Below, one piece after another: positions 19,690 through 34,943 of a stretch of DNA of 34,943 nucleotides; within the stretch, counting starts at the first letter, position 1, and the number at the start of each line of letters is the position of its first letter. The stretch comes from a virus, in the IMG/VR virus record IMGVR_UViG_3300036883_000007, positions 1 through 34,943 of that record; one strand, written 5' to 3'. Under the pieces are notes generated by a model. That model was given only the letters and a program-made list of their open reading frames with translations, had not been told where the DNA came from and ran no database searches. The translations under genes were made by a program, and so were the position numbers.

Positions 19690-19702
19690 CTTTTTATTCC
19701 TC

Positions 19703-20134
19703 CTATGTTTGTGACGGCATGATAAACAACCGCCCTCGTATCCCAATCCATGACTGACTTGTATACGTCAGTCGTCCTTCGTGGTCATAGATGATCGGCA
19801 CGCCGATCGTCTTAGTGTCCGGCAACGGCGTGTCAGTCGGTAAGAATGATATGCTGAACGTGTTGATTATCCCGTTGACCGGGTCGGCGAGAGTGATGTT
19901 CCCGGCATCGGTGCTTTTAGGTATCAGTATGTCCCCGTTGAACGTGGCATTCCACGTAATATCATAATCAGTGATGTCTCGGGGATCTCCGGCAGGTGTG
20001 AACAAATGGATGTTCACCGTCAGCGATGCCCGCTCATCGATGTTAATATCCACGCCGGTCGGCGTTGCGGCCATCGGCGTTGTAATTGGTAAGCCGCCGC
20101 TGTCCACTTCCGTCACTTTATAGCCTATGCTCAT
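19703..20134 (-). CDS. Virion beta protein with BppU-like Ig fold
   Basis: A 143-residue protein with IDERASLTVNIHLFTPAGDP, then RDITDYDITWNATFNG, ILIPKSTDAGNITLADPVNG and a beta-rich end. The layout resembles the C-terminal domain of the fibre-like protein at 16820-17896 and BppU-type domains. It probably belongs to the surface-protein block. It overlaps the upstream gene (ATGA) and ends in TAG, which forms part of the TAGGAGG ribosome site of the next gene. Confidence 0.65.
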   Translation of the reverse strand: MSIGYKVTEVDSGGLPITTPMAATPTGVDINIDERASLTVNIHLFTPAGDPRDITDYDITWNATFNGDILIPKSTDAGNITLADPVNGIINTFSISFLPTDTPLPDTKTIGVPIIYDHEGRLTYTSQSWIGIRGRLFIMPSQT

Positions 20135-22847: not shown

Positions 22848-23104
22848 TATCCCCCGACGAGTGGCGTTCCGGTTGCGTCAGTCCATGCCGTGCCGTTATA
22901 CCAAACTGGCTGATTACGCGTCGTGTCGTAGACCTGTTGCCCTGTCGTCGGTGTGAGCGCCTTTCGCTGTGCCGTTGTTACTATCAACGGGAGAACGCCG
23001 ACTATACTTGGATCTAACTTCGGGGCAGTTACCGCGCCGTCAAAGATCTGTTCCGTGTCGACGCAATTCGGCCCGAGTGTTGTTCGTGATGAAGTTCCGG
23101 GCAT
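22847..23104 (-). CDS. Small virion or fibre-like protein
   Basis: An 85-residue protein. The second half (TAQRKALTPTTGQQVYDTTR followed by NQPVWYNGTAWTDATG) is the short motif found near the ends of many phage fibre and structural proteins, P-x-x-G-x-x-V-Y-D-T-x-x-x-x-x-x-x-Y-N-G-x-x-W. The first half reads DTEQIFDGAVTAPKLDPSIV, another fibre-type motif. It is probably a small surface or fibre-tip protein. Confidence 0.7.
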   Translation of the reverse strand: MPGTSSRTTLGPNCVDTEQIFDGAVTAPKLDPSIVGVLPLIVTTAQRKALTPTTGQQVYDTTRNQPVWYNGTAWTDATGTPLVGG

Positions 23105-23110
23105 GACGCA

Positions 23111-23350
23111 TCACTTCTTTTTAACAGGTGAACGAACCATTTTGTTTTTCTTTGGTGCGTCAACTGCCTTCATTGCCTTTACTTCCTCGACTTCCTCTTC
23201 TTTCATTGGATTAACTGCCTTGAGGTATTCTTTGGTTGCGTCGACCGCTGTGCCGCCTTTAATCAAGTTGCCCGCCATAACTTCGTCGTACCATTGATAC
23301 GAGCCGCTTGTGTGACCGTTATATTCCTTTAGAAATCTGACTAATTGCAT
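23111..23350 (-). CDS. Small protein with charged tail
   Basis: A 79-residue protein with a Lys/Glu-rich C-terminal half ending in KKK. AAAAGGAGG lies just upstream of ATG 23350 but can pair with the sequence before it (see the hairpin at 23357-23374). It is the first gene after the terminator-like hairpin that follows the capsid genes. Its function is unknown. Confidence 0.65.
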   Translation of the reverse strand: MQLVRFLKEYNGHTSGSYQWYDEVMAGNLIKGGTAVDATKEYLKAVNPMKEEEVEEVKAMKAVDAPKKNKMVRSPVKKK

Positions 23351-23356
23351 TTTGAC

Positions 23357-23374
23357 CTCCTTTTAAAAAAGGAG
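23357..23374 (-). promoter_or_regulatory. Hairpin that would hide the ribosome site of the 79-residue gene
   Basis: On the minus strand CTCCTTT (23368-23374) can pair with AAAGGAG (23357-23363) across a 4-base loop. The second arm is the Shine-Dalgarno site of the gene starting at 23350, and the first arm overlaps the T-tract of the preceding terminator-like hairpin. Confidence 0.45.
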
Positions 23375-23391
23375 CGGGGACTATTGTCCCC
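23365..23391 (-). terminator. Hairpin plus T-tract after capsid genes
   Basis: On the minus strand GGGGAC (86-91 in complement) pairs with GTCCCC (76-81) around a 4-base loop, directly after the TAA of the 175-residue protein, followed by GCTCC and six T. Similar to the terminator after the histone gene. Confidence 0.65.
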
Positions 23392-23919
23392 TTATGCTGA
23401 CGTTGCCTCGGTTGTCGACGTAGGCGGTTCCTCTCGAGCGTTGAAGAACTCGAGCAAAGGTGTTCCGACCACTGCATCAACTGACGCGGCGACGAACGTT
23501 GCCGAGATCTTTATCTTGAGGTTCGCGTTGACCTTGACATTGTCAAGATCCCACATTGCTTCAACAACACCCGGCCCTGTCGTGGCGACGTATCCATGTG
23601 CCGCATCCGTGCCGACAGGCGTGATCGTTGGAGCGTTCGCCGTGCCTGCAACATACGAAGGCAACGAGACACTCTGATATGCGTTCGATGTCCCGCTGTC
23701 GGACTGCAACTCGAGTTGAACTGCAACCGCGCCGCCGCCTCCCGTTTTAATGAACGGGAATATCGCCCTGACTGCGTTAAACGCCTTGTTGGTTCCGATT
23801 GCGTATGCCGTCGGTGTTGAGGTGATCGTTGAACCGGCGCCGGACGCGGTGAGTGTCACCGGGCCGCTCTCGGGCTGCTTGATCCTCGCCTGTCCAATCA
23901 TTCCACTTTTCCATGCCAT
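23392..23919 (-). CDS. Capsid-associated or head decoration protein
   Basis: A 175-residue protein directly after the major capsid gene. It is beta-rich (AVAVQLELQSDSGTSNAYQS, VKVNANLKIKISATFVAAS), consistent with a head decoration, minor capsid or stabilising protein. No family was recognised. Start ATG 23919 has CGGAGGAAG upstream, while the earlier in-frame ATG lacks a site. A terminator-like hairpin follows its stop, so it ends the capsid transcript. Confidence 0.7.
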   Translation of the reverse strand: MAWKSGMIGQARIKQPESGPVTLTASGAGSTITSTPTAYAIGTNKAFNAVRAIFPFIKTGGGGAVAVQLELQSDSGTSNAYQSVSLPSYVAGTANAPTITPVGTDAAHGYVATTGPGVVEAMWDLDNVKVNANLKIKISATFVAASVDAVVGTPLLEFFNAREEPPTSTTEATSA

Positions 23920-23950
23920 GTTACTTCCTCCGTTTGATAACGCCATTCGA

Positions 23951-25204
23951 TTAGACGTTGCCCCATGTCACGCCGGTTAATGCAGCGGCGGATGCGGGAT
24001 GTCGCATTCCGAAGTCGTGCATTTGAATCGCACGAATAACTGCCTCGTCTCTGCTGAATGGCGAGAGTAAGGTTCCGCTCATATCGTAAGCGGCCTCGGT
24101 CGAAGCGTCGATTCTCATCGTCATGGCATCGCCGATAATCATCTCGGGGAACTCGGCAAGATAGATGTAGTTCGTTGTCGGTGCGTCCATGCTCAGTTGA
24201 GTCGTGGTTGCGATTGGGTGTCCCCAAAATGTGTTGTTCGCCTGTACTGTTGGGAACGCGAGCATGCCTGTTGCTTCCCTCACTTGTGCGAGCCAGTTCT
24301 TGTTTGACGGCCGCATTATCCAACCTCGCTTTGTGTTGGGTACGTTGGCGTTGTCGAGAACTGTCTCCATTCTCGCGGCGTCGGTTGTTGCCGTTACTGC
24401 CGATGGAGTTGCGGTCATTGCGATTGCATTTGCCGCAGTCATCTGATTCCGCATTCCGACAGGTGTGGCGAGTGCGCCGTTACCTTCGATGAATGCAAGA
24501 TCTTCTCTCAATGCCATTTGTTTTACGATGTCGTTGCGAACCATTTGGTCAACGTTCGGTTGTGAGAAGTCAAGGAGATCAGTTGAGATCGCCGTGATTG
24601 CTCCGAGTTTGTGACCTTGTAGGTTAATCTGTCCGACTTGTAGCTGCGAGTAGGTGATGTTCCCGCCTTCGCTGAGATACGCTGCCGTTGCGCCGCCGGT
24701 TTGCCGTGTGATGCTCAGTTGTCCGTTGACAAGAGGCATGATCGTGCATCCCATTGATCGCATGACCGTCGCGGCAAGCAAGAGTTCAATGACTTCGTCC
24801 GAGAGTATCTCGGGAACCATCATGCCGCCTGCGGTTGGAATAGCAACCTCGAGCGCCTTGGTGATCTTGGATTTGTCACCAAACTTCCGCTGCGCCCAAA
24901 AGTGAGCATCCCTGACGTTACCCTTGGCGTTCGCGTATGCGATTATAAGTCCGCCAAGTGGATCGACCTTTTCAAACTTGTTTGCTTCCGCATACTGTTC
25001 CTCGCCTGCGAGTGCCGTGCGGATCGCAAGGTTCTGTCGGTCAATTGCCTCATGGGTTTGACCCTTGAGTTCGTCTTTTGTTTGTCCAGTTCGCTTCAAG
25101 AACATATCTTGAAGCTGTTGCCGTGTGTACTTCGTCTCTCGTTTGATCCCATCTTTGCCCATGAGATCGTTCAACTGAGAACGAGTCATTCGTATTTCGC
25201 CCAT
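23951..25204 (-). CDS. Major capsid protein, HK97 fold
   Basis: A 417-residue protein. The N-terminal 130 residues are charged and helical (a delta-domain-like region removed or used in assembly, RSQLNDLMGKDGIKRETKYT). The body shows the HK97 pattern: PTAGGMMVPEILSDEVIELL near residue 140, then SEGGNITYSQLQ, an EDLAFIEGNGALATPVGMRN segment, and a closing SRDEAVIRAIQMHDFGMRHP. Start ATG 25204 is supported by GGAGG and lies just after the scaffold stop. The frame also runs upstream into the scaffold gene but without a ribosome site. It forms the icosahedral shell. Confidence 0.92.
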   Translation of the reverse strand: MGEIRMTRSQLNDLMGKDGIKRETKYTRQQLQDMFLKRTGQTKDELKGQTHEAIDRQNLAIRTALAGEEQYAEANKFEKVDPLGGLIIAYANAKGNVRDAHFWAQRKFGDKSKITKALEVAIPTAGGMMVPEILSDEVIELLLAATVMRSMGCTIMPLVNGQLSITRQTGGATAAYLSEGGNITYSQLQVGQINLQGHKLGAITAISTDLLDFSQPNVDQMVRNDIVKQMALREDLAFIEGNGALATPVGMRNQMTAANAIAMTATPSAVTATTDAARMETVLDNANVPNTKRGWIMRPSNKNWLAQVREATGMLAFPTVQANNTFWGHPIATTTQLSMDAPTTNYIYLAEFPEMIIGDAMTMRIDASTEAAYDMSGTLLSPFSRDEAVIRAIQMHDFGMRHPASAAALTGVTWGNV

Positions 25205-25205
25205 G

Positions 25206-26009
25206 TTATGCCTCCGCGCCGTTGCCTTCAAGGACTGCTCGTAGTTCGTCCTCGTCAACAACAACAATCTCGTCGTCAGATTCGTCTTTTACTTCGCCGC
25301 CCTCGCCTTGTAGAACGGCCCGCAACTCATCCTCATCGACGACTATAATGTCATCATCAGATTCCCCTTTATCAGTCTCGACGACAATCGGTTCCGTGTT
25401 CTCTGTCACTACTGCGGGGACAGTAGCAATCTCGCCCTTTGTTTCATCGGGCGACGCCGCGTTCGTGCCTGATGCCGGTGTCGCATCTCCCGCGTCGGGA
25501 TTCGGCGCAGGATTGTCGCCTTGATTTGGTTTCGATCCCGGCCCGCCCGGTCCGGGTGTACCTGTCACTTGGTTCAATACCCCGTTCGTCAATTTGACGC
25601 CGGAGTTGTGTGCCGCTACTGCGTCCCTAAGATCGCCTTCGTTCGCCGCACTCAGAACGCGCCCCGCTTTCAGTTCGGCAATCGTCGCCTCGAGTCCGGC
25701 GATCTTATCCTCATATACTTTCGTTTCTTGTTCGCTCATACTTGCCTCCGTTCCGCCGAATCCTTTTTTCCATTCTAGAGGAGAAGGATCGGCGCATTTA
25801 GTCGGCGGGTCGTCCTTCTTGTGCCACGCACACATCGCCGTTTCAACTCGAGAGTGAAGCCAATTCATATCGGCCTGTGTAAAACCTGTCATCAAATTGC
25901 CTTGCGCTGCAAATTGATGCAAGCGCCGGTGATATGCTGACAGATCCGACAAACTCTCCTTGTTGATTGCGGTTTGTAAATCACTCTTGTCAGTGTCCGT
26001 GATTGTCAT
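25206..26009 (-). CDS. Scaffold-like protein with two C-terminal acidic repeats
   Basis: A 267-residue protein between the prohead protease and the capsid gene, the standard scaffold position. Residues about 90-115 form a coiled coil (SEQETKVYEDKIAGLEATIA), residues 145-190 are Pro/Gly/Asn linker, and the C-terminus holds two copies of SDDDIIVVDEDELRAVL-type sequence. Cys residues sit near the N-terminus (CAWHKKDDPPTKC). It overlaps the protease by ATGA. It probably guides shell assembly and is cut or expelled. Confidence 0.72.
   Translation of the reverse strand: MTITDTDKSDLQTAINKESLSDLSAYHRRLHQFAAQGNLMTGFTQADMNWLHSRVETAMCAWHKKDDPPTKCADPSPLEWKKGFGGTEASMSEQETKVYEDKIAGLEATIAELKAGRVLSAANEGDLRDAVAAHNSGVKLTNGVLNQVTGTPGPGGPGSKPNQGDNPAPNPDAGDATPASGTNAASPDETKGEIATVPAVVTENTEPIVVETDKGESDDDIIVVDEDELRAVLQGEGGEVKDESDDEIVVVDEDELRAVLEGNGAEA
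25209..25364 (-). repeat. Two 25-27-codon repeats at the scaffold C-terminus
   Basis: Units 25284-25364 and 25209-25283 encode nearly the same peptide (SDD-D/E-I-x-VVDEDELRAVL), yet differ at many third positions. The duplication is therefore old, and the peptide has been kept by selection. Confidence 0.8.
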
Positions 26010-26749
26010 GTCTTTGCCTCCTCACGTTCCCGAATCCGCTCCGTGATCTCGGTGATGTGAGCGCACTTCGATTCCTTGAGGGGGCAATCATCGCCCGTAC
26101 AGAACTTGATTGCTTCCGGTGTCCACGCCTTGAGCATAGACTTGGCTTCGTCATAACCGAACGACTTTGACCTGTCAATCAATGCTTGCGGGTTCGCAGG
26201 TACCGGAACTGCGGAGAACTCTAATAGATCCCACTTTGTAAACCTTGTTCCGTCGTTAAATGCGATAATGGCGCTCTTGCCTTCGTCCTTTTCCTCGATG
26301 TCCTCCCATTCCATAGGATCAAAGCCTATTGAGACGGCATTGAGGAATCCTGTCAGATACATTCGACGAATCATTGACCCGCGAATGCCTGCATAAGATT
26401 CGTGGTAATTGGTATCAGGTTGGAATACGACCTTTGCCTGTATCGCGTTCTGTTCAACTGTTGCGCCGTCCTTGATTGCCTTGATCTTGGTCGCTACCAG
26501 CGATACAGATTTGCCGACAGGCATCTCGTCGTAGTTGTGCGCCCATTGCATCACCGGGTTTGTGGTGAAGTTCTCGACCATAACTCCGGCAGGATCAACG
26601 ATGTCACGATCCCTGTCGCGGACGTCCGTTGTTATAGTGAACGTGATCGGCCCGTTCTCGTCGTTAATATCGCCGAGTGGTTTAACGTCGTCGATCTTGT
26701 AGATCTTGTAGATCTTTTTGCCGTGTTTAACATCCTTTGCGAGTGTCAT
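26006..26749 (-). CDS. Prohead protease, HK97 family (peptidase S78)
   Basis: A 247-residue serine protease that matures the capsid. Expected elements appear in order: early DRDRDIVDPAGVMVENF, catalytic-type His H71 in WAHNYDEMPVG, Ser S140 in FLNAVSIGFDP, and the closing WDLLEFSAVPVPANPQAL motif. The C-terminus adds a Cys cluster (C217, C222, C229, H231) not typical of the family. ATG 26749 follows the HNH gene with AGGTGA as ribosome site. Confidence 0.9.
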   Translation of the reverse strand: MTLAKDVKHGKKIYKIYKIDDVKPLGDINDENGPITFTITTDVRDRDRDIVDPAGVMVENFTTNPVMQWAHNYDEMPVGKSVSLVATKIKAIKDGATVEQNAIQAKVVFQPDTNYHESYAGIRGSMIRRMYLTGFLNAVSIGFDPMEWEDIEEKDEGKSAIIAFNDGTRFTKWDLLEFSAVPVPANPQALIDRSKSFGYDEAKSMLKAWTPEAIKFCTGDDCPLKESKCAHITEITERIREREEAKT

Positions 26750-26757
26750 TCAATCAC

Positions 26758-27153
26758 CTACTCAACACAACTCGATCGTGCCGCAAGCATCAGTGCGGCG
26801 AGTTGCCGTATGTTCGGGTTATAATGCCAGCACTCGGGATCGCAACCATGAGCAAACCTGTGGTGTTCAAAATGATGCAGCATTATGAAGTTCGCCAAGA
26901 TGAAGTCATAGTCGTTCTGTTGTGCCGTTGTGAGTTTGTGGTACGGTAGAACATCGTGTGCCTCGAGTTGACACTGATCTCCGGTTGCGCCGTCCAACTT
27001 GGCATCAGGAACATTAAGCGAACCTTCCTTTGACCCGCACATCTCGCAAGTATCGTGTGCATTATGGAAGTCGGCTGCCGCCTGTGTCCACGCCACGGTT
27101 CTCGGTTGGCTACCTATCCCTTTGAACTGCTTGCGACGTGATAAGAAACTCAT
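26758..27153 (-). CDS. HNH-type nuclease-like protein in head module
   Basis: A 131-residue protein with two zinc knuckles, C36-x2-C39 and C104-x3-C108, around an HNH-like core: LEAHDVLPYH (H66), ANFIMLHHFEHHRFAHG (H93-H98). HNH proteins near terminase and portal genes help packaging in HK97-like phages. Here it sits between portal and protease, without a visible terminase nearby. Start ATG 27153 overlaps the stop of the membrane peptide (ATGA). A longer frame in the same register runs over that gene and is not likely used. Confidence 0.75.
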   Translation of the reverse strand: MSFLSRRKQFKGIGSQPRTVAWTQAAADFHNAHDTCEMCGSKEGSLNVPDAKLDGATGDQCQLEAHDVLPYHKLTTAQQNDYDFILANFIMLHHFEHHRFAHGCDPECWHYNPNIRQLAALMLAARSSCVE

Positions 27154-27248
27154 CCCGGGAACCTCGCATAAAGAACAGCGGCGATATACACGCCGATTAT
27201 GATTGCTACTATCTCGGTCAAGAATATAGTTGCCCAATCGCGGATCAT
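27150..27248 (-). CDS. 32-residue membrane peptide
   Basis: A short frame with an AGGAGG ribosome site before ATG 27248. It encodes one hydrophobic helix (ATIFLTEIVAIIIGVYIAAV) with short polar ends and ends in an ATGA overlap with the HNH gene. A single-pass peptide of this size may act in the host membrane, for example in lysis or superinfection control, but no function can be assigned. Confidence 0.65.
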   Translation of the reverse strand: MIRDWATIFLTEIVAIIIGVYIAAVLYARFPG

Positions 27249-27262
27249 GTGTGAATCCTCCT

Positions 27263-27532
27263 TTAGATAATCCCGGTCTTTTTCCGCTTCTCTAAGTCCG
27301 CATCCTCGGTCGACTTTGCCATTTCCTTGGCTTTCTTTTGATCGAGTCGGATCTTTAAGAACTCGTCAGAGTTGAGAAGTAGATGCTCCGCCTCCGTGAT
27401 ACACGTAGGACAGAGCCATTCTCGTTTCTTTGCGCCGCCAATGAGCCGCAGTTTGCGACTATGTTCACCACAGATGTCGCAGTGTTGCGGGACGCGAATC
27501 TCGATCCACTCTGTTAGAATATCTTTGTTCAT
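27263..27532 (-). CDS. Zinc-ribbon protein
   Basis: An 89-residue protein with two Cys pairs (HCDICGEHS and WLCPTCITEAEHLL) that form a typical C4 zinc ribbon, followed by a charged helical tail. ATG 27532 overlaps the previous TAA (TAATG) and a GGAGG site lies upstream in the preceding gene. Such small ribbons often bind nucleic acid or partner proteins in archaeal viruses. The exact role is unknown. Confidence 0.75.
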   Translation of the reverse strand: MNKDILTEWIEIRVPQHCDICGEHSRKLRLIGGAKKREWLCPTCITEAEHLLLNSDEFLKIRLDQKKAKEMAKSTEDADLEKRKKTGII

Positions 27533-27726
27533 TACCTATCGCCTCCTCGCATCGTCATTTGTAAATCATCAAGAAGTTGACGTTTCTCTGCCGGTGTTAG
27601 GTCTTTGATTAGATCTTTGAGTGTGACGGTTGTGACGGTTCCAGTGTTGTATATACATTCAAACTCGCCATTGCCATTATAACCACAATCATGCAACTTT
27701 CGCCCGTTGATCTCGCTGTTCATCAT
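27532..27726 (-). CDS. Small protein, possibly the 3' part of a TAG-interrupted gene
   Basis: A 64-residue frame (KLHDCGYNGNGEFECIYNTG then TVTLKDLIKDLTPAEKRQLL) with a helical end. There is no Shine-Dalgarno motif before ATG 27726. The frame stays open upstream without another ATG or GTG to a TAG at 27778-27780, beyond which a good start is found in the same frame (27855). Either this is translated from ATG 27726 by weak coupling, or it is the downstream half of one 107-codon gene with an internal TAG. No family was recognised. Confidence 0.6.
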   Translation of the reverse strand: MMNSEINGRKLHDCGYNGNGEFECIYNTGTVTTVTLKDLIKDLTPAEKRQLLDDLQMTMRGGDR

Positions 27727-27777
27727 CTTTACATCGTCATCGGAGACCGCAACTTTGTGATGTTTTGTTTGCAGGAT

Positions 27778-27855
27778 CTATCGCCACCGTTTAGTTATAT
27801 CGTCGTCTTTGTTTTTGCAATACTTCAGCACATCTTCAACTTCGATCTTTGCCAT
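27778..27855 (-). CDS. 25-codon frame ending in TAG, in frame with the next gene
   Basis: A short frame, MAKIEVEDVLKYCKNKDDD followed by ITKRWR and TAG, with GGTGA upstream of ATG 27855. It is in the same reading frame as 27532-27726, separated by TAG and 17 sense codons. It may be a small gene in its own right or the 5' part of the longer gene. Confidence 0.45.
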   Translation of the reverse strand: MAKIEVEDVLKYCKNKDDDITKRWR

Positions 27856-27865
27856 TCGCTCACCT

Positions 27866-28033
27866 TCATACCGTGCCGAATGCTCCGCCGTGGTTCTTGA
27901 TCTTGACCCCAATTGCGAGCAATTCCATCACCGCTTGATCTAAGGTCACGGTGACGTTGTCTTGTGCCAATCGTTCGGCTATGTATGCCGTCATTGCGGT
28001 ATCTGTCGTCCCTGCAACTGTCCATGAAACCAT
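27866..28033 (-). CDS. 55-residue small protein
   Basis: A frame starting at ATG 28033, with AGGAGG 9 bases upstream. The product (MVSWTVAGTTDTAMTAYIAE... ending NHGGAFGTV) is mostly helical and resembles small head-module proteins without a known family. It follows the portal stop; the TAG of the portal gene forms part of its ribosome site. Regular spacing and the strong site support a real gene. Confidence 0.65.
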   Translation of the reverse strand: MVSWTVAGTTDTAMTAYIAERLAQDNVTVTLDQAVMELLAIGVKIKNHGGAFGTV

Positions 28034-28045
28034 CTTATAAACCTC

Positions 28046-29536
28046 CTAATTGTAGCGCCGTCTTTGTCGCAACGTCACGACGTAACCCCGGCCCGTACGA
28101 ACCTTTCGTCCGCCTTTTCTGCGTTTGTTTTGTTGTGAGGACATTGAAGCAGCTTCGGGCATGAGAACGTTGGGTTCATTCGAGCCGGGTACATCGGTGA
28201 CTGCGGGATTCTCGGACGTATCTTGTCCGGTCGGATCAGGCAACGGTTCTGTCGTTGGTTGTGTTGGTTCCGTCGCCTCGGGTGTAAGTGGATTAAGATC
28301 GATGTTCATCGCCAACGGGAACCGTTGACCCATCTCGTCAGGTAAAGGTTCCTCATCTGCCGCCGCTCGAACTTCATCGATCAGGAATGCGTACGGTGCG
28401 GCGGTCATCACGGCGAGTTTGTAGTCTTTATCCTCTTGAATCGGCGAGACGAAGTCGATCTCAATAAGTCCGGTATCATCGAACTTAGGAACGAGTTGCT
28501 TTTGGAATGCCTCGCGCATTTGGTTTAAGATTGGTGTTAATGTGTATCGTGAGAAGAACAGATCAGCGGCCACGATCGTCGCCCGGTTACTGTTACTCAA
28601 TATGCCGATGATCTCAGGCGGTATACCGAACACTTGGATGATCGTGTCACGTTCATATTGCCGCAACGGGATGAACTGCATCGCTTGGAAGTCCTGTTGA
28701 AACGTGGTGACTTCGACCGCTTCACTCATGAAGTGCGGTTTAAATGCGTTCCAAAAACCTGATTGTTTCTCGATCCAATCCTCCTCGATCTTCTTTGTCT
28801 TTTCCGGGTTCAATCCTTTGCCGGTGATTAAGATGTCAGGTCGTGCTTGCTTCTCAAAGAATGCGCGGACAGTCTTTGCCGCTTCATCATCCGTTGATAG
28901 TTCATCGTCGAGAGATTGAGCAACGCCTGATCCGCGAGAATAAGGAACGACAGGATCAGGATCGATCATCCAAAAGACTTCCTCCATTGGGATCGGGAAC
29001 TGACCTGTTGGGAGTGAGATCATAAAGGCAGGTTCGGCAGGTGTTGGCAATTTGGTGATCGCATTCGGAGTGATCGGCCATATCTGCATTCCTTCGGGAG
29101 TTGAATCCCAAACGCCGAATGCTTCGCCAGTTGTCCGCAAGTGAACCGACCACAGGAACATAACCGTTTGCCAACTGAAAAACGGATTCGGTTTCGATAA
29201 GAAGATCTCGATCGGATGTTTATCGCCTTCGAGTATGTCCTCGAGAGGAACCATTTGCTCCGTCTCAGGATCTTCGGTCAATCCCAACCATTCGACGCCG
29301 CTGATTGAGTGTGAGATCTTGCCGACTGCGGCACGATACCACGGTAAGGTGTTATAAGCATTGAGAAATTGAGGAATGCCGCGCTTGACGCCGGTCGATT
29401 GTCGTGCGGCCCCAAGATACTGTGTGATAAAAGAGTTTGCCGTTGATCCACCTGTCACACTTGCGCCAACAGGTGTCGGTTGTCTTGTGACTGCCTTGCG
29501 AACTCGGGTTAATAATCCTTCGCTTGTCGTAGGCAC
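28046..29536 (-). CDS. Portal protein, HK97 type
   Basis: A 496-residue portal. The N-terminal part (AYNTLPWYRAAVGKISHSIS, then SGVEWLGL) and the central region with PNPFFSWQTVMFLWSVHLRT and the helical motif QVFGIPPEIIGILSNSNRAT followed by FSRYTLTPILNQMREAF are characteristic. The C-terminus adds a Pro/Thr-rich linker and a very basic tail (KRRKGGRKVRTGRG). It forms the DNA entry ring. The start is a GTG with no Shine-Dalgarno and an in-frame stop just upstream, which suits a gene at the start of a transcript. Confidence 0.92.
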   Translation of the reverse strand: MPTTSEGLLTRVRKAVTRQPTPVGASVTGGSTANSFITQYLGAARQSTGVKRGIPQFLNAYNTLPWYRAAVGKISHSISGVEWLGLTEDPETEQMVPLEDILEGDKHPIEIFLSKPNPFFSWQTVMFLWSVHLRTTGEAFGVWDSTPEGMQIWPITPNAITKLPTPAEPAFMISLPTGQFPIPMEEVFWMIDPDPVVPYSRGSGVAQSLDDELSTDDEAAKTVRAFFEKQARPDILITGKGLNPEKTKKIEEDWIEKQSGFWNAFKPHFMSEAVEVTTFQQDFQAMQFIPLRQYERDTIIQVFGIPPEIIGILSNSNRATIVAADLFFSRYTLTPILNQMREAFQKQLVPKFDDTGLIEIDFVSPIQEDKDYKLAVMTAAPYAFLIDEVRAAADEEPLPDEMGQRFPLAMNIDLNPLTPEATEPTQPTTEPLPDPTGQDTSENPAVTDVPGSNEPNVLMPEAASMSSQQNKRRKGGRKVRTGRGYVVTLRQRRRYN

Positions 29537-29568
29537 GGTTCAAATAAGGATCGCATCGCAAATAAAGG

Positions 29569-29576
29569 ATATTAAA
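29569..29576 (-). promoter_or_regulatory. TATA-like element upstream of the portal gene
   Basis: TTTAATAT on the minus strand, centred about 37 bases before the portal GTG. A start of transcription 26-27 bases downstream would leave a leader of about 10 bases, in line with the absence of a ribosome site. Confidence 0.4.
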
Positions 29577-29713
29577 TCTATTACAAAGGACTTTATCAAA
29601 AAGTATAGAGATTCAAGATTAGGGAGGAGAACGAAAGCATGTGCCGTATCCGGGGCCATACGTCCCGGACAAGCAACTCGCAGATTTAAGGAGGTGAAAA
29701 AAGGACTTAACTC

Positions 29714-29721
29714 TTTTATAT
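29714..29721 (-). promoter_or_regulatory. Second TATA-like element in the intergenic region
   Basis: ATATAAAA on the minus strand is closer to the archaeal TATA consensus. It would start a transcript near 29691 with a structured leader of about 150 bases before the portal gene. Confidence 0.35.
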
Positions 29722-29779
29722 GCTTCCGTTCTACGAGTCGAGTAATGCCACTAAACCGACTCGCGTTATATAGTTGACT

Positions 29780-29911
29780 TCACTCTTTATCTTTGTTTGC
29801 TTCTGATTCGATAATGCACTTACATCGTTTGCATATCGCATCTTGTGTCGTCATCTTCACGCCGCATCTTGCACAACGTGGCAAGTCAATCGAGTTCATC
29901 TTCTCATTCAT
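29780..29911 (-). CDS. 43-residue zinc ribbon
   Basis: The product (MNEKMNSIDLPRCARCGVKM...) has two Cys pairs, CARC and CKRC, with a further Cys two residues later, separated by a short loop, so a zinc ribbon is likely. ATG 29911 overlaps the upstream gene by 8 bases, with ATTAGATG-type coupling and GAGG nearby. It is the last gene before the intergenic region. Confidence 0.65.
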   Translation of the reverse strand: MNEKMNSIDLPRCARCGVKMTTQDAICKRCKCIIESEANKDKE

Positions 29912-30059
29912 CTAATCCTCTGATCTGAATCATACCAACTTTACAATTCGCACAGTTGTTCTCACAACTGCAAAGACGTTCGCCTTTGACAACCGTTAAG
30001 AACTGGCAACCTTTGACGAGTTCATAAACATACGGAGAGTTGCATCTTCTGTTCGTCAT
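29904..30059 (-). CDS. 51-residue Cys-rich protein
   Basis: The product starts MTNRRCNSPYVYELVKGCQF and has six cysteines (C6, C18, C30, C32, C36, C39). The pattern C-x-C-x3-C-x2-C plus two earlier Cys could bind zinc or an iron-sulfur cluster. I place the start at ATG 30059, one base after the previous stop. A longer frame in this register runs through the upstream gene and reads as noise there. Confidence 0.65.
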   Translation of the reverse strand: MTNRRCNSPYVYELVKGCQFLTVVKGERLCSCENNCANCKVGMIQIRGLDE

Positions 30060-30060
30060 G

Positions 30061-30330
30061 TTAATGGTGAATCCAATGTCCGCGAGTTGCGGTTCGTGTC
30101 TTTCGTTCTGTCGCACAGTCAGGACAATAGATCGGCGGTCGTCCGTTGGTCTTGATGATCTTGCCGTTCTTGTTTCTGACTCGGAACTCATGTTCGAACT
30201 GTTTGCCACACGGACACTCGATCGTCGCGGTCATTGGTTTGTATGTCATCTCAATTGATTCAACGAAACTATACATCGTCGGCCCTAAGACCGCGAACAG
30301 TGTGTCTTTATCCTGTTCGGTTAATGTCAC
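30061..30330 (-). CDS. Zinc-ribbon protein (GTG start)
   Basis: An 89-residue protein. After a helical N-terminus (TEQDKDTLFAVLGPTMYSFV) comes a four-Cys ribbon, CPCGKQFEHEFRV and later YCPDCATERKTRT. The start is GTG 30330, overlapping the preceding TGA (GTGA). A role in nucleic-acid binding is plausible; no family is assigned. Confidence 0.72.
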   Translation of the reverse strand: MTLTEQDKDTLFAVLGPTMYSFVESIEMTYKPMTATIECPCGKQFEHEFRVRNKNGKIIKTNGRPPIYCPDCATERKTRTATRGHWIHH

Positions 30331-30431
30331 GATCTTAACCTGCGTTCGATTCGCAAGAACGTCATGATAAAGATCGCAACCTCCATAAAGATCACGACCT
30401 TCGTATCAAATACAATCTGTTTAAGTCTCAT
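30327..30431 (-). CDS. 34-residue membrane peptide
   Basis: MRLKQIVFDTKVVIFMEVAI followed by FIMTFLRIERRLRS: one hydrophobic helix flanked by basic ends. It is coupled on both sides (ATGA upstream, GTGA downstream). It has no close ribosome site of its own. A small membrane protein of unknown role is the best reading. Confidence 0.5.
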   Translation of the reverse strand: MRLKQIVFDTKVVIFMEVAIFIMTFLRIERRLRS

Positions 30432-30472
30432 TCGCCGATCACCTTTTGCCCTTTGAATGTGGCGTATGTCAT
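30428..30472 (-). CDS. 14-residue mini-frame repeating the tail of the RHH-like gene
   Basis: ATG 30472 preceded by GGTGA opens MTYATFKGQKVIGE. This is the last 14 residues of the 58-residue protein at 30706-30882 with one change (T to K). It may be a remnant of a duplicated gene or a ribosome relay between neighbours. Confidence 0.35.
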   Translation of the reverse strand: MTYATFKGQKVIGE

Positions 30473-30475
30473 CGT
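30428..30475. repeat. 48-bp near-perfect repeat, copy 1
   Basis: Differs from 30706-30753 at 3 of 48 positions. Offset 278 bp. Confidence 0.9.
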
Positions 30476-30709
30476 TCACCATATCAATGAATCATCCCTT
30501 GTGTCCACCTTATGCGGAACGATCTGATCCACAGTTGAGTCAACGTCGATCTCGTTCTCCAATACACAATAATCGAAGTTGTCAAGCAACAAACAAAGCA
30601 ACTCGTCTCCCGACATATACTTGCCACGTTTGACGGCCATTTTGTGACGGAGATAATTGAACTGTGCATGTGTTTGCCTCTTGCAAGCGATACATGTTGT
30701 GTTCTTCAT
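30476..30709 (-). CDS. Small protein with CxxC
   Basis: A 77-residue protein with an N-terminal Cys pair (NTTCIACKRQTHAQF) followed by a basic helix and an acidic C-terminal half (ENEIDVDSTVDQIVPHKVDT). The layout of C-x2-C with later His could be half a zinc site. The family is unknown. It is joined to the RHH-like gene by an ATGA overlap (ATG 30709) and lies between the two 48-bp repeats, which makes an insertion between copies possible. Confidence 0.65.
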   Translation of the reverse strand: MKNTTCIACKRQTHAQFNYLRHKMAVKRGKYMSGDELLCLLLDNFDYCVLENEIDVDSTVDQIVPHKVDTRDDSLIW

Positions 30710-30753
30710 TCACCAATCACCGTTTGCCCTTTGAATGTGGCGTATGTCATCGT
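30706..30753. repeat. 48-bp near-perfect repeat, copy 2
   Basis: The 3' end of the RHH-like gene, repeated at 30428-30475. Confidence 0.9.
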
Positions 30754-30882
30754 GATTCTCTCGAGCATCTCGACTCGAGTAATGCCACGTTCATCGGCCC
30801 ACTTCATTATCAGATCACCATACGGATCTTTCTTAATCGTGAGATGCACATAGTTGAGTCTACTCGGTGAGTTCGCGCCCAT
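30706..30882 (-). CDS. 58-residue ribbon-helix-helix-like protein
   Basis: The product (MGANSPSRLNYVHLTIKKDP... ending TFKGQTVIGE) shows a short strand (NYVHLTIKK), a helix (PYGDLIMKWADERG) and a second helix (TRVEMLERITMTYA), matching the ribbon-helix-helix pattern of small DNA-binding regulators. The start ATG 30882 lies inside the end of the preceding gene (23-base overlap). It could regulate transcription of this accessory operon. The call is by pattern only. Confidence 0.6.
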   Translation of the reverse strand: MGANSPSRLNYVHLTIKKDPYGDLIMKWADERGITRVEMLERITMTYATFKGQTVIGE

Positions 30883-31255
30883 CGTTTGCCTCTTGATCTA
30901 AATGTATTGACTCATCGAGCAAAATGCCGTGCTTGACTAAGAACGCATACGGATAGACTGCCGATGCTCCGATTGTGTTTTGCATCGTGACAGGATTCGG
31001 GATAGATGCCGCGAGACTGTATCGCCACATTCCTTTAGGATCCTCCTTGTTGATCGGTTCTGATTCGATCGGACTTAACTTCAATGTGTTGAAGTCAATG
31101 TCTTTCTGTTTACAGAACAACCAAAGTTGTCGTCGTAGATCTTTCTCGATGAAGTTCAACTCTTTATCCTTGACCTCGCTGTCGTAGGTGACAACGGATC
31201 TCGGATCGATCTCAACGTCTTTCTCCATCGCTTGTCGTTTAGATAATAGATTCAT
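30860..31255 (-). CDS. Hypothetical protein, 131 residues
   Basis: A soluble, mixed alpha/beta protein (LNFIEKDLRRQLWLFCKQKD, SAVYPYAFLVKHGILLDESI). I do not recognise a family; a weak likeness of its PYAFL segment to a portal segment is not convincing. It has a strong AAAGGAGG site before ATG 31255, directly after the previous stop. It ends in TAG; reading through would add only 8 residues before TAA. Confidence 0.7.
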   Translation of the reverse strand: MNLLSKRQAMEKDVEIDPRSVVTYDSEVKDKELNFIEKDLRRQLWLFCKQKDIDFNTLKLSPIESEPINKEDPKGMWRYSLAASIPNPVTMQNTIGASAVYPYAFLVKHGILLDESIHLDQEANDGRELTE

Positions 31256-31450
31256 TTAGTCCTCCTTTGAATAATCCCTTGCCTTGATCTTGATCGCTCC
31301 GGGTCGATCTTTGCTCACCTCTGTATCTCGTCCATCAGATAGATATTCAATATCACCTCGATCAATCGCTTTCTTAAACTCGGATGATACGATATTCCCG
31401 AACGCTTTATTGAGCCACTCGATCGCATCATCGTACTTTAAGTATCTCAT
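31256..31450 (-). CDS. Small putative DNA-binding protein
   Basis: A 64-residue protein (YLKYDDAIEWLNKAFGNIVS, FKKAIDRGDIEYLSDGRDTE) whose layout of helix, helix, G-I/D-I-x-Y and short wing resembles small excisionase/MerR-like winged helices. It is the first gene after a 105-base gap. A TATA-like element lies about 26 bases before ATG 31450, so it may begin a transcript. The function is only suggested. Confidence 0.6.
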   Translation of the reverse strand: MRYLKYDDAIEWLNKAFGNIVSSEFKKAIDRGDIEYLSDGRDTEVSKDRPGAIKIKARDYSKED

Positions 31451-31471
31451 GGTTGCCTCTTGTCAACTAAA

Positions 31472-31479
31472 GTATAATT
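31472..31479 (-). promoter_or_regulatory. TATA-like element before the 64-residue gene
   Basis: AATTATAC on the minus strand is centred about 26 bases before ATG 31450, the distance expected for a leaderless archaeal transcript. A weak GAGG is also present, so it is not conclusive. Confidence 0.35.
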
Positions 31480-31555
31480 GCTCATAATCACCTTTGCTTT
31501 AAATCATCTCATTATTCGTTGTTAACATGTCGGGGGTTTTATTATTCCTAGGTTC

Positions 31556-31915
31556 TTAGAGTTCTACAAATTGTCGTCCGTCCCATCGGTATATGTTGTT
31601 CTCAAACATATCGGGGCCGAGATCGTAGATCCTGCGAACCCATTTAATCAAGATCCTGCGATAATCATAGTCAGTATCGCGGTTGTCTACGGGGAACGCA
31701 TTAAGGAATGATCCATGCGGCAAGTGACAACGATCGGTGACTTCAGTAACCGTAATATTATTGTTGATAAAATAGGCGAGACATCTCGATATAAGGATGC
31801 TCTCACCGAGTTTAACTCCCTGCAATCTGTGTATCCGATGCAGCATTTTAGGAATTCTATATAATGGTTTTAGAGTGTTGAGTGGGTACATCTCTTCGTT
31901 GATTGGTTTTATCAT
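31556..31915 (-). CDS. Hypothetical protein, 119 residues
   Basis: A helical protein (LGESILISRCLAYFINNNIT, YRRILIKWVRRIYDLGPDMF) with a possible helix-turn-helix near NITVTEVTDRCHLPHGSFLN. The family is not recognised. It overlaps the preceding gene by 4 bases (ATGA) and has AAAGGAGG upstream. A regulator or packaging-related role cannot be excluded. Confidence 0.7.
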   Translation of the reverse strand: MIKPINEEMYPLNTLKPLYRIPKMLHRIHRLQGVKLGESILISRCLAYFINNNITVTEVTDRCHLPHGSFLNAFPVDNRDTDYDYRRILIKWVRRIYDLGPDMFENNIYRWDGRQFVEL

Positions 31916-32385
31916 CGTAATACCTCCTTTCTTGGTGCGGGATTATCCCAACCTTCGTCGTGCGTGAGTCGATCGCCGAGCATCTCCTCAAGGTTTGACA
32001 TCGTTATGTCAATATCATTTGAATTCGCGGGACTTGCTCTGTGTGCGTGAAACTGTGTAAGATAAAACGCATAAGCGCCCTCGCGTTGTTTGTCGGTTGC
32101 GTAGTTGCCGTCTCTTGAATCGTCAATAATCTGGCCGCGCGCGTCTCTGATTGGTTTGTTTGAGTCCCAAAAAGACGGCGGCGGCGATATACTTGGCTTT
32201 GTGCGTCCTGTCGGCGGCTTTGATTCGTGTGCTCTTGCCCATGCTTGCCACTTGTGGTCTTGGAAAAAAAGATCGGACGGCTTTGAATAGTGCCGTCCGT
32301 AAACTATTCTCTTTAAGAGTTTCTCGATCGTGGCAAGTTCTGAGAAAGGTCGCCAATTCAATATCGAGAAATCGGGATTGAGCAT
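31912..32385 (-). CDS. Hypothetical protein, 157 residues
   Basis: The protein starts MLNPDFSILNWRPFSELATI and contains a Trp/Lys-rich middle (FFQDHKWQAWARAHESKPPT) and an Ala/His-rich helix (EGAYAFYLTQFHAHRASPAN). No family was recognised. ATG 32385 is 2 bases after the peptidase stop; the frame runs further upstream over the peptidase gene, where it is antisense-quality Arg-rich noise, so the shorter start is chosen. Confidence 0.68.
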   Translation of the reverse strand: MLNPDFSILNWRPFSELATIEKLLKRIVYGRHYSKPSDLFFQDHKWQAWARAHESKPPTGRTKPSISPPPSFWDSNKPIRDARGQIIDDSRDGNYATDKQREGAYAFYLTQFHAHRASPANSNDIDITMSNLEEMLGDRLTHDEGWDNPAPRKEVLR

Positions 32386-32387
32386 GT

Positions 32388-33290
32388 TTATCCCGTGTTG
32401 TTTTCGACCATCACTGACGGGTTTATTGGTTCTAATGTTCCGCCGTTGACGGTTGCGATCCTCCCGATCATTTTGGCGATGTGTGACTCGAGCGTTATGA
32501 CCCAATAGTCGGTCAATAATCCCATGTCGGCGTATTTCTTGGGTAAATAGCCGTATCCGTGATCGCCCCATGTTGTGTCCCACGAATTTTTGAACTTGTA
32601 TGCGCCTGTCGTTGTTGATCCATCGGTTTCGTTGGTGATGACTAAGTCAGGAAGCCATGCACAATATTCGAGTGCGTGTCCGCCGACAATTGCCTCGCCT
32701 TTAACCGGATACGGGAACCAACCTGTCTTTTCTCCTTGGTCGTAGGACGCGTAAACCGGAACGCCTGCGATAAACGGCAGTCCTGCGACGCTGAATGCGC
32801 CAAGAGAATCGAGGAATATTTGATTGAGCGATTTGCCGGGTACGTCGATATTGTAGTAGCCAATCGCCTCGGTCAACTTGGCAGTCGCTTTAACTGCCGC
32901 TGTCGGTTCTTTGTTGAGGTTCTTTGCAGTGTTCGGCCACGAAGTCGTCGGAGGACAGCCGTATTTATTCGCTGCCATCGTCACGGCTTTCAATGTTGCG
33001 CCGCTGTCGCCATGTAACCCTAACAGATCCCGCGCCATTTTGTAGATGAACATCGCACTGACATCGGTGTATTTGCCTGCGAAGTTCTTTTTCTGCCAAT
33101 ACTCGAAGGCTGACTTGCACGCCATGCCTGTACATTCGCCGAATCCGTTTTGATTATAAACTGGCGTGTCGCCTGCGCTTATGTCGATCGGTTTCGTCGG
33201 ATCAATTGTCGGCGCAAGCGATGGGAATATCTTGTTCCGCATATCAGGCTTGCTCGGGCCTATCCATCCAAACTTTCTTTCAACGGTCAT
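32388..33290 (-). CDS. C1A (papain-like) cysteine peptidase
   Basis: A 300-residue peptidase with all expected parts: Q47 and C53 in PVYNQNGFGECTGMA, H205 in GGHALEYCAW, and N235 in KFKNSWDTTWGDHGYGYLP, the classical oxyanion Gln, nucleophile, His and Asn. There is no clear signal peptide or long propeptide (the N-terminus reads MTVERKFGWIGPSKPDMRNK). Start ATG 33290 has GGAGG 5 bases away. Possible roles are degradation of host surface protein at entry or exit, or processing of virus or host proteins. It lies outside the tail and lysis clusters. Confidence 0.88.
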   Translation of the reverse strand: MTVERKFGWIGPSKPDMRNKIFPSLAPTIDPTKPIDISAGDTPVYNQNGFGECTGMACKSAFEYWQKKNFAGKYTDVSAMFIYKMARDLLGLHGDSGATLKAVTMAANKYGCPPTTSWPNTAKNLNKEPTAAVKATAKLTEAIGYYNIDVPGKSLNQIFLDSLGAFSVAGLPFIAGVPVYASYDQGEKTGWFPYPVKGEAIVGGHALEYCAWLPDLVITNETDGSTTTGAYKFKNSWDTTWGDHGYGYLPKKYADMGLLTDYWVITLESHIAKMIGRIATVNGGTLEPINPSVMVENNTG

Positions 33291-33579
33291 CTTTTCCTCC
33301 GTATATTCGTACATACGCTCCGGGCGGCCACGTCACAGGCGTTACAGTATACTGCGAACTGTTGCATTTGCAGGTTTCGACCTTATCAGGTTGTTCGCTG
33401 ACTCGAGACAATCGATCGGCCTGATTCTCGAGTCGTTCCGCGATGGTTTTTAACATCCTTCTCTCGCGGTCATCGGTGTGATTAGGCAACCATACCATGT
33501 CCTCAATCGTTCTTGCGAGTTGCCGGGCTGTTTGTTTAAGCGCCCATGCTTCGGTGTTTATCTCGTCCTCAAGACTCAT
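33280..33579 (-). CDS. Helical protein with Cys-x-Cys near its end
   Basis: A 99-residue protein, mostly amphipathic helix (LEDEINTEAWALKQTARQLA, RRMLKTIAERLENQADRLSR), ending in a short segment with CKC and a beta tail (YTVTPVTWPPGAYVRIYG). It overlaps the next gene by 11 bases and the preceding one by 11. The function is unknown. ATG 33579 is chosen over an earlier frame extension through the neighbouring gene. Confidence 0.65.
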   Translation of the reverse strand: MSLEDEINTEAWALKQTARQLARTIEDMVWLPNHTDDRERRMLKTIAERLENQADRLSRVSEQPDKVETCKCNSSQYTVTPVTWPPGAYVRIYGGKDDR

Positions 33580-33799
33580 TGTTATTAACTCCCGTCCGCC
33601 ATTCCTCGGCAAACTTGGCGACACTGGATGACGGCTCTCGATTCCATTGCCTGTAGAGAAGCGAAATAACCAAACTGAAAGATCTATCCGCCTCCTCCTT
33701 GACTGCTGTGTTCCTTAATCGTGCGATCGCCATTCCGTACAGTTTATTGACTTCTCGCTCGAGTATGACTTCCTCAGTGTTATACGTCGATTTACCCAT
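33569..33799 (-). CDS. Hypothetical helical protein, 76 residues
   Basis: A mostly helical, charged product (EEVILEREVNKLYGMAIARL, ADRSFSLVISLLYRQWNREP) of unknown family. ATG 33799 forms a TAATG junction with the preceding 57-residue gene. The compact coupling indicates that it belongs to the same transcript as its neighbours. Confidence 0.68.
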   Translation of the reverse strand: MGKSTYNTEEVILEREVNKLYGMAIARLRNTAVKEEADRSFSLVISLLYRQWNREPSSSVAKFAEEWRTGVNNNES

Positions 33800-33972
33800 T
33801 ACTCGCGCCTCGTTTCTTGTTCTCTGCTTGATGACGCTGTTGCACGTTCTAAAGTGCTATCTAATAAGGCCATAGCGGCTGTTATGCCTGTATTCATGTC
33901 CATGAACGGAGCGCCTGCGTCGTCCTCGACAGAGACGTATGCCAATCCTACAATATCCAATTCAATTTTCAT
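33799..33972 (-). CDS. 57-residue hypothetical protein
   Basis: The product (MKIELDIVGLAYVSVEDDAG...) has a strand-like start, an acidic turn and a helical, Ser/Arg/Glu-rich end. GGAG lies upstream of ATG 33972, directly after the terminator of the histone gene. The family is unknown. Good coupling with the next gene supports it. Confidence 0.6.
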   Translation of the reverse strand: MKIELDIVGLAYVSVEDDAGAPFMDMNTGITAAMALLDSTLERATASSSREQETRRE

Positions 33973-33984
33973 ATTTTCTCCAAT

Positions 33985-34015
33985 AAAAAAAAGAGGGACT
34001 TTTATTGTCCCTCTT
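33985..34015 (-). terminator. Hairpin terminator after the histone gene
   Basis: On the minus strand AAGAGGGAC pairs perfectly with GTCCCTCTT (9 bp) around a 7-base loop, followed by a run of eight T overlapping the stem end. The stem begins within the histone stop codon. Confidence 0.85.
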
Positions 34016-34199
34016 ATGCCGTTATGTCGGCCGGTTCTATACGAACACGCTTCGCTGCGGTCATTGATGCGACTGCGGCGGTTGCGATTGCGTTCATCTT
34101 GGCAGTCATCACCGCGTCGAATTCGTTGAGTGCTGCTTCGCTGACCTGCTTTGCGCCTGCGGCTTTGCAGGCTTTATCGAATGCTGCTTCACTTATCAT
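34014..34199 (-). CDS. Histone-fold protein (archaeal histone-like)
   Basis: A 61-residue protein. The segment AGAKQVSEAALNEFDAV and onward aligns without gaps to the HMfB type (AGAERVSDDAR...), about 14 of 48 identical by eye. It keeps the VS opening of helix 2, the I-A-x-x-A heart of helix 2, and the R51/D58 pair (R-x-x-I-x-x-x-D-I). The third helix is cut short right after DITA, and the charge is near neutral (7 basic, 7 acidic), so DNA wrapping as in normal histones is uncertain. It could pair with host histones or pack virus DNA. A strong AAAGGAGGTGA site and a terminator suggest high expression. Confidence 0.75.
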   Translation of the reverse strand: MISEAAFDKACKAAGAKQVSEAALNEFDAVMTAKMNAIATAAVASMTAAKRVRIEPADITA

Positions 34200-34220
34200 G
34201 TTGTTTTGTTGTCACCTCCT

Positions 34221-34364
34221 TTAACATTCGAGACTTGCTTGCGTCCATGACGTCTTATCGTTTGCCATGATGTCATCCGCACAACGCTGACAAATGCCGT
34301 TGTTCTGTTCTCTTGAGTTCAATGGGTGTTTGCATCGTCGGCAACACGGCGTATCATCGCTCAT
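34221..34364 (-). CDS. 47-residue zinc ribbon
   Basis: The product starts MSDDTPCCRRCKHPLNSREQ and has two Cys pairs (CRRC and CQRC). It overlaps the preceding coiled-coil gene (ATGA) and ends just before the ribosome site of the histone-like gene. The ribbon may bind nucleic acid or protein; no family is known. Confidence 0.65.
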   Translation of the reverse strand: MSDDTPCCRRCKHPLNSREQNNGICQRCADDIMANDKTSWTQASLEC

Positions 34365-34786
34365 GGACAGCCCTCCGCAAAACTAATCCCGGTTATCTTG
34401 GCGAACTCAATGTATGCCATCAAGTCACGGCGTTGTTCGTGGAGTCGTAGGATCGTCGCTTTGCGTTTCTCGATCAATGCCTTCTTTGTTCGATACTCGA
34501 TTTTATTCTCCCAATATACCGCGGCATGGTCAAGTCCGACGATTGTCGCCATATCCCGCGCTTTGTCGCTTGTGTACCTCGCTTTGTTGGTTTCGCCGTT
34601 CGTCTCGAGTGCGACGCCGACAAAAACCTTTGCCTCTTCAATCTCGAGGACTTCTTTGAGTCTCTCCGCCTCGTATGAGTCGTCGATCATGAGGTTCGTC
34701 TCGGCGAGAATCTTGTCAGCGGCTTCGGTCAAGCCATCACTCATCGCCTTTAAAATCTCGGTGGATGCGGTCATGCTTTCATCCAT
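34361..34786 (-). CDS. Helical phage protein, possibly linked to DNA recombination genes
   Basis: A 141-residue helical protein. The segment GVALETNGETNKARYTSDKA, then RDMATIVGLD and the long closing helix (EYRTKKALIEKRKATILRLH) follow a layout seen in uncharacterised phage proteins often found next to single-strand annealing genes (Y-S/T-x-x-x-x-R, then a D-x-x-Y-x-x-L stretch). That link is from memory and low in certainty. ATG 34786 overlaps the partial gene to the right by 16 bases. Confidence 0.65.
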   Translation of the reverse strand: MDESMTASTEILKAMSDGLTEAADKILAETNLMIDDSYEAERLKEVLEIEEAKVFVGVALETNGETNKARYTSDKARDMATIVGLDHAAVYWENKIEYRTKKALIEKRKATILRLHEQRRDLMAYIEFAKITGISFAEGCP

Positions 34787-34943
34787 TGCTCAACTCCCTC
34801 CGCTGCCATTGCGACTCGAAGTTCCTTGCTCAATGTGATCCGAACCGTTGCGCCGCTGTTCTCTTTCGTAAACTCAAGATACGTGCCGATGAATATGTTG
34901 TCCTCATAGGTCATCGTGTAATTGCATTCCTTGAGCCAACCGA
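34771..34943 (-). CDS. Partial hypothetical protein cut by right edge
   Basis: The last 56 residues are visible, from GWLKECNYTMTYEDNIFIGT to MAAEGVEQWMKA and TGA. It reads as a beta-then-helix domain (TYLEFTKENSGATVRITLSK, ELRVAMAAEG). The 5' end is outside the window. The overlap with the next gene suggests the same transcript. Confidence 0.6.
   Translation of the reverse strand, partial: GWLKECNYTMTYEDNIFIGTYLEFTKENSGATVRITLSKELRVAMAAEGVEQWMKA

Follow-up and report, generated by a model that had tools for sequence, protein, structure and literature searches.

The window, which is the whole 34,943-base IMG/VR record IMGVR_UViG_3300036883_000007, contains a 61-amino-acid open reading frame (P0001, variant A; 34014..34199, minus strand) that encodes a histone-fold protein. 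This identity is confirmed. It was settled through the relatives of the protein, because a profile of the family and one relative taken alone (P0002) match archaeal histones; the window sequence by itself stays under every threshold. The virus is tailed, as the original prediction had it. By Pfam, the window encodes a portal protein (PF04860, E=8e-39) and an HK97-type capsid protein (PF05065, E=3e-43).

The histone gene lies among other small genes on the minus strand. A strong Shine-Dalgarno sequence, AAAGGAGGTGA (34212..34222, minus strand), is located 12 nt 5' of its ATG and shares bases with the stop codon of the gene directly upstream. GGAGGTGA precedes the histone gene in the other five variants too. 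The upstream gene (34221..34364, minus strand) encodes a zinc-ribbon-like protein of 47 amino acids with a CxxC...CxxC arrangement, for which zf-FPG_IleRS was found under the cut-off (E=0.013). The next gene (34361..34786, minus strand) encodes 141 amino acids, has no assigned function and differs between the window and L001. The downstream gene (33799..33972, minus strand) encodes 57 amino acids with no Pfam or PHROGs match. A terminator-like hairpin of 9 pairs with a T run (33991..34015, minus strand) begins inside the histone stop codon and is the first in the list of such sites; window positions 23000-34943 contain 14 of them against a shuffle mean of 13.2, which is no excess.

Six distinct family sequences were retrieved from scans of viral contigs and from the records that these scans led to. 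Variant A is encoded in the window and L001, B in L002 and L003, C in L013, D in L014 and L015, E in L044, and F (P0002) in L045 to L047. Their pairwise identity is 34-97%. Of 20 IMG/VR virus records examined, 10 encode the family (8 of 18 in one search, plus G001 and the window). This fraction is not a prevalence, because the histone itself led to several of the records and several are no more than short fragments. Both C and F are encoded in one record, G002 (67.9 kb); the loci concerned are L047:1501-1689, with F, and L041.

Single-sequence searches gave no significant match for the window protein. It had 0 matches in PDB by phmmer at E<=10. In Pfam it reached PF00125 (Histone, E=0.016) and Bromo_TP (E=0.09), both under the cut-off, and in PHROGs nothing was significant (best E=0.24). 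P0001 was unmatched among INPHARED phages at E<=10, P0002 was unmatched among PLSDB plasmids, and variants B and C singly matched no Pfam family. Near-misses in Pfam across the six members were Histone, TAF, Bromo_TP and PF00808, together with the non-histone families NNH6 (0.048) and AAA_lid_2 (0.12), each in one member. The HMM search proposed with the original prediction succeeded in part. The histone fold was recovered by profile ranking. PF00808 was never significant; it was unmatched in the window record and 17 related records (18 virus records), and over the six family members it appeared in one member with E=0.095.

The profiles ranked histones first. A three-row profile retrieved 14 rows from PDB, of which the best six are archaeal histones (E=0.02-0.25) and the seventh is an antifreeze protein (0.31). 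A six-row profile, in which the aligner introduced gaps in row F, retrieved 14 rows from 177,635 PDB sequences. The best eight of these are histones (E=7e-4 to 0.23), and they include HPhA (7e-4, the top row), HMfA, HMfB, archaeal histone A and two viral H4-H3 doublets. They are followed by ribosomal L7/L12 (ninth, 0.61), an oxidoreductase, H4 and PmdC, with E of 0.6-2.5. P0002 alone matches HPhA with E=9e-4. Without gaps, 20 of 50 residues are identical between the two, which was equalled by 0 of 2000 shuffles. The gapless shuffle test took in five of the six variants. The score of the window protein was equalled by 2 of 2000 shuffles against HMfA, 8 of 2000 against HPhA and 0 of 2000 against archaeal histone A. 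The weakest variant against these three histones was E (23, 0 and 16 of 2000). By hand count, 11 family-invariant positions are invariant with the same residue in HMfA, HPhA and archaeal histone A; the family has 17 invariant positions, 14 of them inside the compared stretch. The gapless alignment to archaeal histones that had been claimed is borne out by the profile rows and the shuffle tests.

The predicted structures have the same layout. The AF2 model of A was built from 3 sequences (pLDDT 82.5, pTM 0.54), and the model of F was built from 4 (pLDDT 83.0, pTM 0.54). Both contain a helix at 4-13, a helix of 28 residues at 21-48 and then a three-residue stub of helix 3, so the early end of helix 3 that had been noticed in the window protein is seen in its model. 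Foldseek with model A returned 36 rows at E<=10, and all 36 are from entries titled with histones or TFIID/TAF histone folds (best E 0.18). With model F it returned 70 rows at E<=10, and all 50 of those listed are from histone-fold entries by title (best E 0.91). These E-values are weak, and the rows were assigned by entry title and not by chain. The listed titles cover histones and TFIID/TAF, NF-Y, CENP-T and Dpb4-type histone folds. VIA-align gave Z up to 6.0, a size that by the tool's own warning may alone reflect a mere common arrangement, with two rows at 2.5 A over 54 residues and 2.2 A over 53 residues. Foldseek against BFVD gave five matches with E of 5.4 or worse and no histone named among them. 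The histone-fold features found are thus the short-long-short helices, with the third rudimentary, and the profile similarity; the curated cut-offs of PF00808 and PF00125 were not reached. An outcome with no histone fold, or with best matches to an unrelated helical family, was looked for and was absent from the profile searches, the AF2 model and the Foldseek results.

The family keeps one set of histone residues and has lost another. HMfB numbering is used here unless stated, and viral residue n corresponds to HMfB residue n+1 in the gapless alignment. Residue roles were taken from the available part of PMC6136690, which gives L46, H49, D59 and L62 as the dimer-dimer residues of archaeal histones. 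The R52-D59 clamp (viral R51 and D58, with the Asp 7 residues past the L2 Arg) is kept in all six variants, as are the stacking glycine G16 and the core residues A24 and A43. The L1 motif AGA..VS is invariant. The window protein contains the AGAKQVS, R51 and D58 of the original prediction, and its I-A-x-x-A is present as IATAA. Core residues L28, L32 and I39 are mostly substituted, and I39 is Glu in C and D. Minor-groove residues R10 and R19 are kept in none of the six; the window protein has Lys in place of R10, and C and D have Lys in place of R19. Either Gln or Lys occupies viral position 18, and viral position 9 can be anything. Among the dimer-dimer residues, D59 is kept in 6/6 and L46, H49 and L62 in 0/6. 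The letters at L62 are shifted one place by the gap before the last residues, and under either reading Leu is absent from this position in every variant. At residue 49 the His is lost, and all variants have Ala. T54 is kept in C and D only. All six variants contain 61-62 amino acids and end 3-4 residues past viral D58. Net charge is -1 to +2 across the variants. In the window protein, 7 Lys and Arg residues balance 7 Asp and Glu residues (net 0), in agreement with the near-neutral charge first described. The span over helix 2 from the L1 Ser to the L2 Arg is 31 residues, the same as in HMfA and HMfB; in HBb it is 27.

The family was compared with the known histone classes. It shares with the archaeal nucleosomal histones (HMfA, HMfB and HPhA) the gapless alignment, the 31-residue span, the L1 AGAxxVS, the R-D clamp and the stacking Gly. 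Unlike them, it is near-neutral and lacks a full helix 3, the minor-groove arginines and L46, H49 and L62. A canonical nucleosomal histone was rejected on these grounds, with a helix 3 of 3 residues against about 10. The alpha3-truncated histones (face-to-face histones, the bacterial dimer HBb and others), as described in the available part of PMC11390915, have a helix 3 of 3-4 residues and a helix 2 shorter by 4-5 residues. The viral family has in common with them a helix 3 cut to about 3 residues, but its helix 2 is full length. Membership in this class was rejected on the full-length helix 2 and the span of 31 residues against 27 in HBb. The 'phage histones' of the same source also combine a small histone fold with tailed prokaryotic viruses. 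They are described there as having a C-terminal tetramerisation helix and no RxTxxxD, whereas the viral family ends after the helix 3 stub, 3-4 residues past D58, and its R...D is invariant. Because its helix 2 has the full nucleosomal span, the family is neither canonical nor a member of the published alpha3-truncated class or of the 'phage histones'.

Two smaller groups and one set of viral contigs were also compared. The Cluster 4 miniature histones, in the accessible text of PMC13260811, are acidic, contain 55 amino acids and have a helix 2 that is one turn shorter. They share the rudimentary helix 3 and the retained R-D clamp; the viral family differs in being neutral (net -1 to +2), with 61-62 amino acids and a 28-residue helix 2. 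Capstones are proposed in Methanobacteriales (Msp_0383 and Msm_1260) in the part of PMC7776873 that was available, with a residue 49 that is either hydrophobic or negatively charged as the marker. Like the viral family, they have lost the His of this tetramer residue, which is Ala in the viral family and Glu in Msp_0383. The marker is weak here because Ala is only mildly hydrophobic. As described there, capstones are cellular paralogs; the present protein is virus-encoded, its helix 3 is shortened and its DNA anchors are also lost. Each closest published class fails a tested feature, capstones excepted. Canonical-type histones were found on six other IMG/VR contigs (L066-L071), which are likewise classed as viral. 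All six contain HAGRKT, although the search patterns favoured HAGRKT. Five extend at least 7 residues past the clamp Asp, and that of L071 stops at D-I-Q and so, judged by sequence only, is also truncated. The contigs reach 152 kb, and these histones could be viral or belong to host flanks.

The reading that we tentatively favour is a capstone or dominant-negative histone, competent to dimerise and incompetent to form tetramers, that ends or dilutes a histone polymer, probably that of the host. The fold and clamp are kept and the tetramer interface, helix 3 and DNA anchors are lost, which is expected of a pairing, non-polymerising protein. The viral protein is predicted to form handshake dimers. 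It would form no tetramer or hypernucleosome, because helix 3 goes no further than the R-D clamp and the family has lost the dimer-dimer residues. Weak DNA binding alone is expected, because both minor-groove arginines are lost and the charge is near zero. It would heterodimerise with a polymerising histone, such as that of the host, or cap the end of a histone polymer. The capped or poisoned polymer would then leave DNA accessible to the virus, for transcription, replication or packaging. The protein may therefore stop or poison the packaging of host DNA instead of building it. The interference with host chromatin through heterodimers that was first suggested would fit this anatomy; the role in virus packaging that was suggested beside it is neither favoured nor disfavoured by the results. 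The original interpretation is thus supported in part, for the histone fold, the tailed virus, the neutral charge and the short helix 3.

The points counted for a capstone are the profile and P0002 matches, the two AF2 models with their Foldseek rows, the pattern of kept and lost residues, Ala at residue 49 as a weak case of the capstone marker, dN < dS, and the allele replacement, which fits plain recombination too. Counted against it are a possibly histone-free bacterial host and the substitutions at L28, L32 and I39, which could weaken pairing. The small alignments behind the AF2 models (3-4 sequences, pTM 0.54), Foldseek E-values of 0.18 or worse, the insignificance of the window protein alone and the non-histone Pfam near-misses NNH6 and AAA_lid_2 also count against it. 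A more specific version is doubtful. It holds that the protein is a viral anti-chromatin histone, a nucleosomal histone with its polymerising end and DNA anchors removed, which would poison or cap host polymers and whose alleles would be swapped to follow the host histones.

The protein may instead be a homodimeric DNA-bending nucleoid protein of the viral genome, similar to HBb and acting without a host histone, which we consider unlikely. HBb is among the structural matches of both AF2 models and has a similarly short helix 3, and the available text of PMC11390915 states that it bends DNA. The strong ribosome site suggests a plentiful product. Variants C, E and F beat most shuffles against HBb (equalled by 25, 7 and 48 of 2000), but A and B did no better than shuffles (802 and 1479 of 2000). 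The longer Ser-to-Arg span, the low net charge and the residues at viral positions 9 and 18 also argue against it.

A similarly low probability is given to a co-opted protein-protein module of the TAF or NF-Y type, with no direct role in chromatin and with a partner such as another viral copy or a regulator from virus or host. The fold is retained though the DNA-contact residues are gone, and Bromo_TP and TAF are among the Pfam near-misses. The divergent C and F copies in G002 could pair. A Cys-rich gene is found upstream of the histone in two virus types, but the two Cys-rich neighbours are unlike each other; that of L013 and L014 is a different ORF of 77 amino acids. In two other contexts it is not upstream, with L052 having its Cys-rich ORF downstream of the histone and L050 having a 165-amino-acid membrane protein as the upstream neighbour. 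None of the six variants departs from the L1 AGA..VS, the stacking Gly or the R-D clamp, which is more conservation than a mere scaffold would appear to need. That the protein is a small Ala-rich helical protein resembling histones by chance is very improbable, and a non-histone was rejected, for although the single-sequence matches of the window protein fall under all curated cut-offs, B and C singly have no Pfam family and the Foldseek E-values are weak, variants that are as little as 34% identical still align in a single register with 11 positions in common with three archaeal histones, and the profile ranking, the shuffle tests, the P0002 match and the two AF2 models all stand against it.

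The histone alleles appear to have been exchanged between near-identical viruses. Over the 2 kb compared between the window and L002, most 60-base bins are 100% identical, the histone-gene bins are 48-83% identical and the flanking bins are 90-98% identical. The L002 allele is 56% identical to that of the window (window 33900-34300), and the surrounding 2 kb is nearly the same. Some indels are present beyond the compared stretch. Between the window and L001 the histone gene is identical, part of the 141-amino-acid upstream gene is 66-70% identical, and a downstream stretch is absent from L001. These bin identities indicate that alleles were exchanged by recombination, and the variation in the L001 upstream gene indicates that exchange is not peculiar to the histone. 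Allele replacement in near-identical viruses fits antagonism, and it also fits plain recombination. The third codon position is the most variable in 15/15 variant pairs. dN is lower than dS in 10/15 pairs, those with a computable dS, with ratios of about 0.07-0.46 that are rough because dS is mostly >1.

The family is found in more than one virus type. The window type contains Phage_portal and an HK97 capsid, and the G003 type contains a Mu-like portal, capsid E and another terminase. The window capsid had no match in G002-G004. The window and G003 types have in common a tail protein (45% identical) and the histone. If the favoured capstone reading is true, this would be a natural dominant-negative histone, of a stripped nucleosomal type, carried by tailed viruses with two or more types of capsid. 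Conflict between virus and chromatin outside eukaryotes would then be directly testable with one small protein.

The best phage matches of the portal, capsid, terminase and tail proteins are bacterial phages, and Halogranum tailed virus 1 is the sole archaeal virus among the rows listed in the phage searches. The host may therefore be a bacterium without nucleosomal histones. Nucleosomal histones are confined to archaea according to the available part of PMC11390915, and an archaeal donor of the gene would be favoured for that reason. Genome contigs were scanned with short peptide patterns for relatives of the histone (350 stretches fitted, 0 confirmed) and of the tail protein (199 fitted, 0 confirmed). 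No tRNA was found in the eight loci scanned (L001, L002, L009, L010 and L020-L023). Codon use, Shine-Dalgarno context and promoter or terminator counts gave no decisive pointer to the host, and neither did the Ku, LmbU-like and C1-peptidase domains.

In cells, histones serve to wrap DNA; the best-known viral histones are those of giant viruses that infect amoebae. No description of the present family was found in the limited literature search. The terms histone and chromatin do not occur in the available parts of PMC8651126 and PMC9800368, and phage or archaeal-virus terms do not occur in that of PMC9145170. Further literature on histones was compared from the accessible portions of PMC12934983, PMC9501531 and PMC12494034.

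Several other features of these viruses were observed. The ATPase and nuclease halves of the terminase are encoded by two same-frame ORFs divided by a stop codon in both strains (L001:207-1019 and 1032-1811; L002:1-210 and 223-1002). Window 18649-19746 contains two adjacent ORFs with a common C-terminal end, and the related record has a 458-amino-acid leucine-rich-repeat version (L009:8302-9678); the difference looks like a tail-fibre rearrangement. P0002 in G002 follows a membrane-protein ORF that resembles a G009 ORF from a scan with one VIT1-matching member. The G003 terminase (L020:8629-11184) contains an intein with a homing endonuclease (Hint and LAGLIDADG), and its G002 counterpart is shorter, at 492 amino acids. 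Ku (PF02735) is encoded in G003- and G002-type viruses (L020:17594-18382 and L062:9789-10577), and G003 encodes a ParB-like gene. A single ORF (L020:4990-7041) gave two matches, one to a uracil-DNA glycosylase domain and the other to a phage serine protease.
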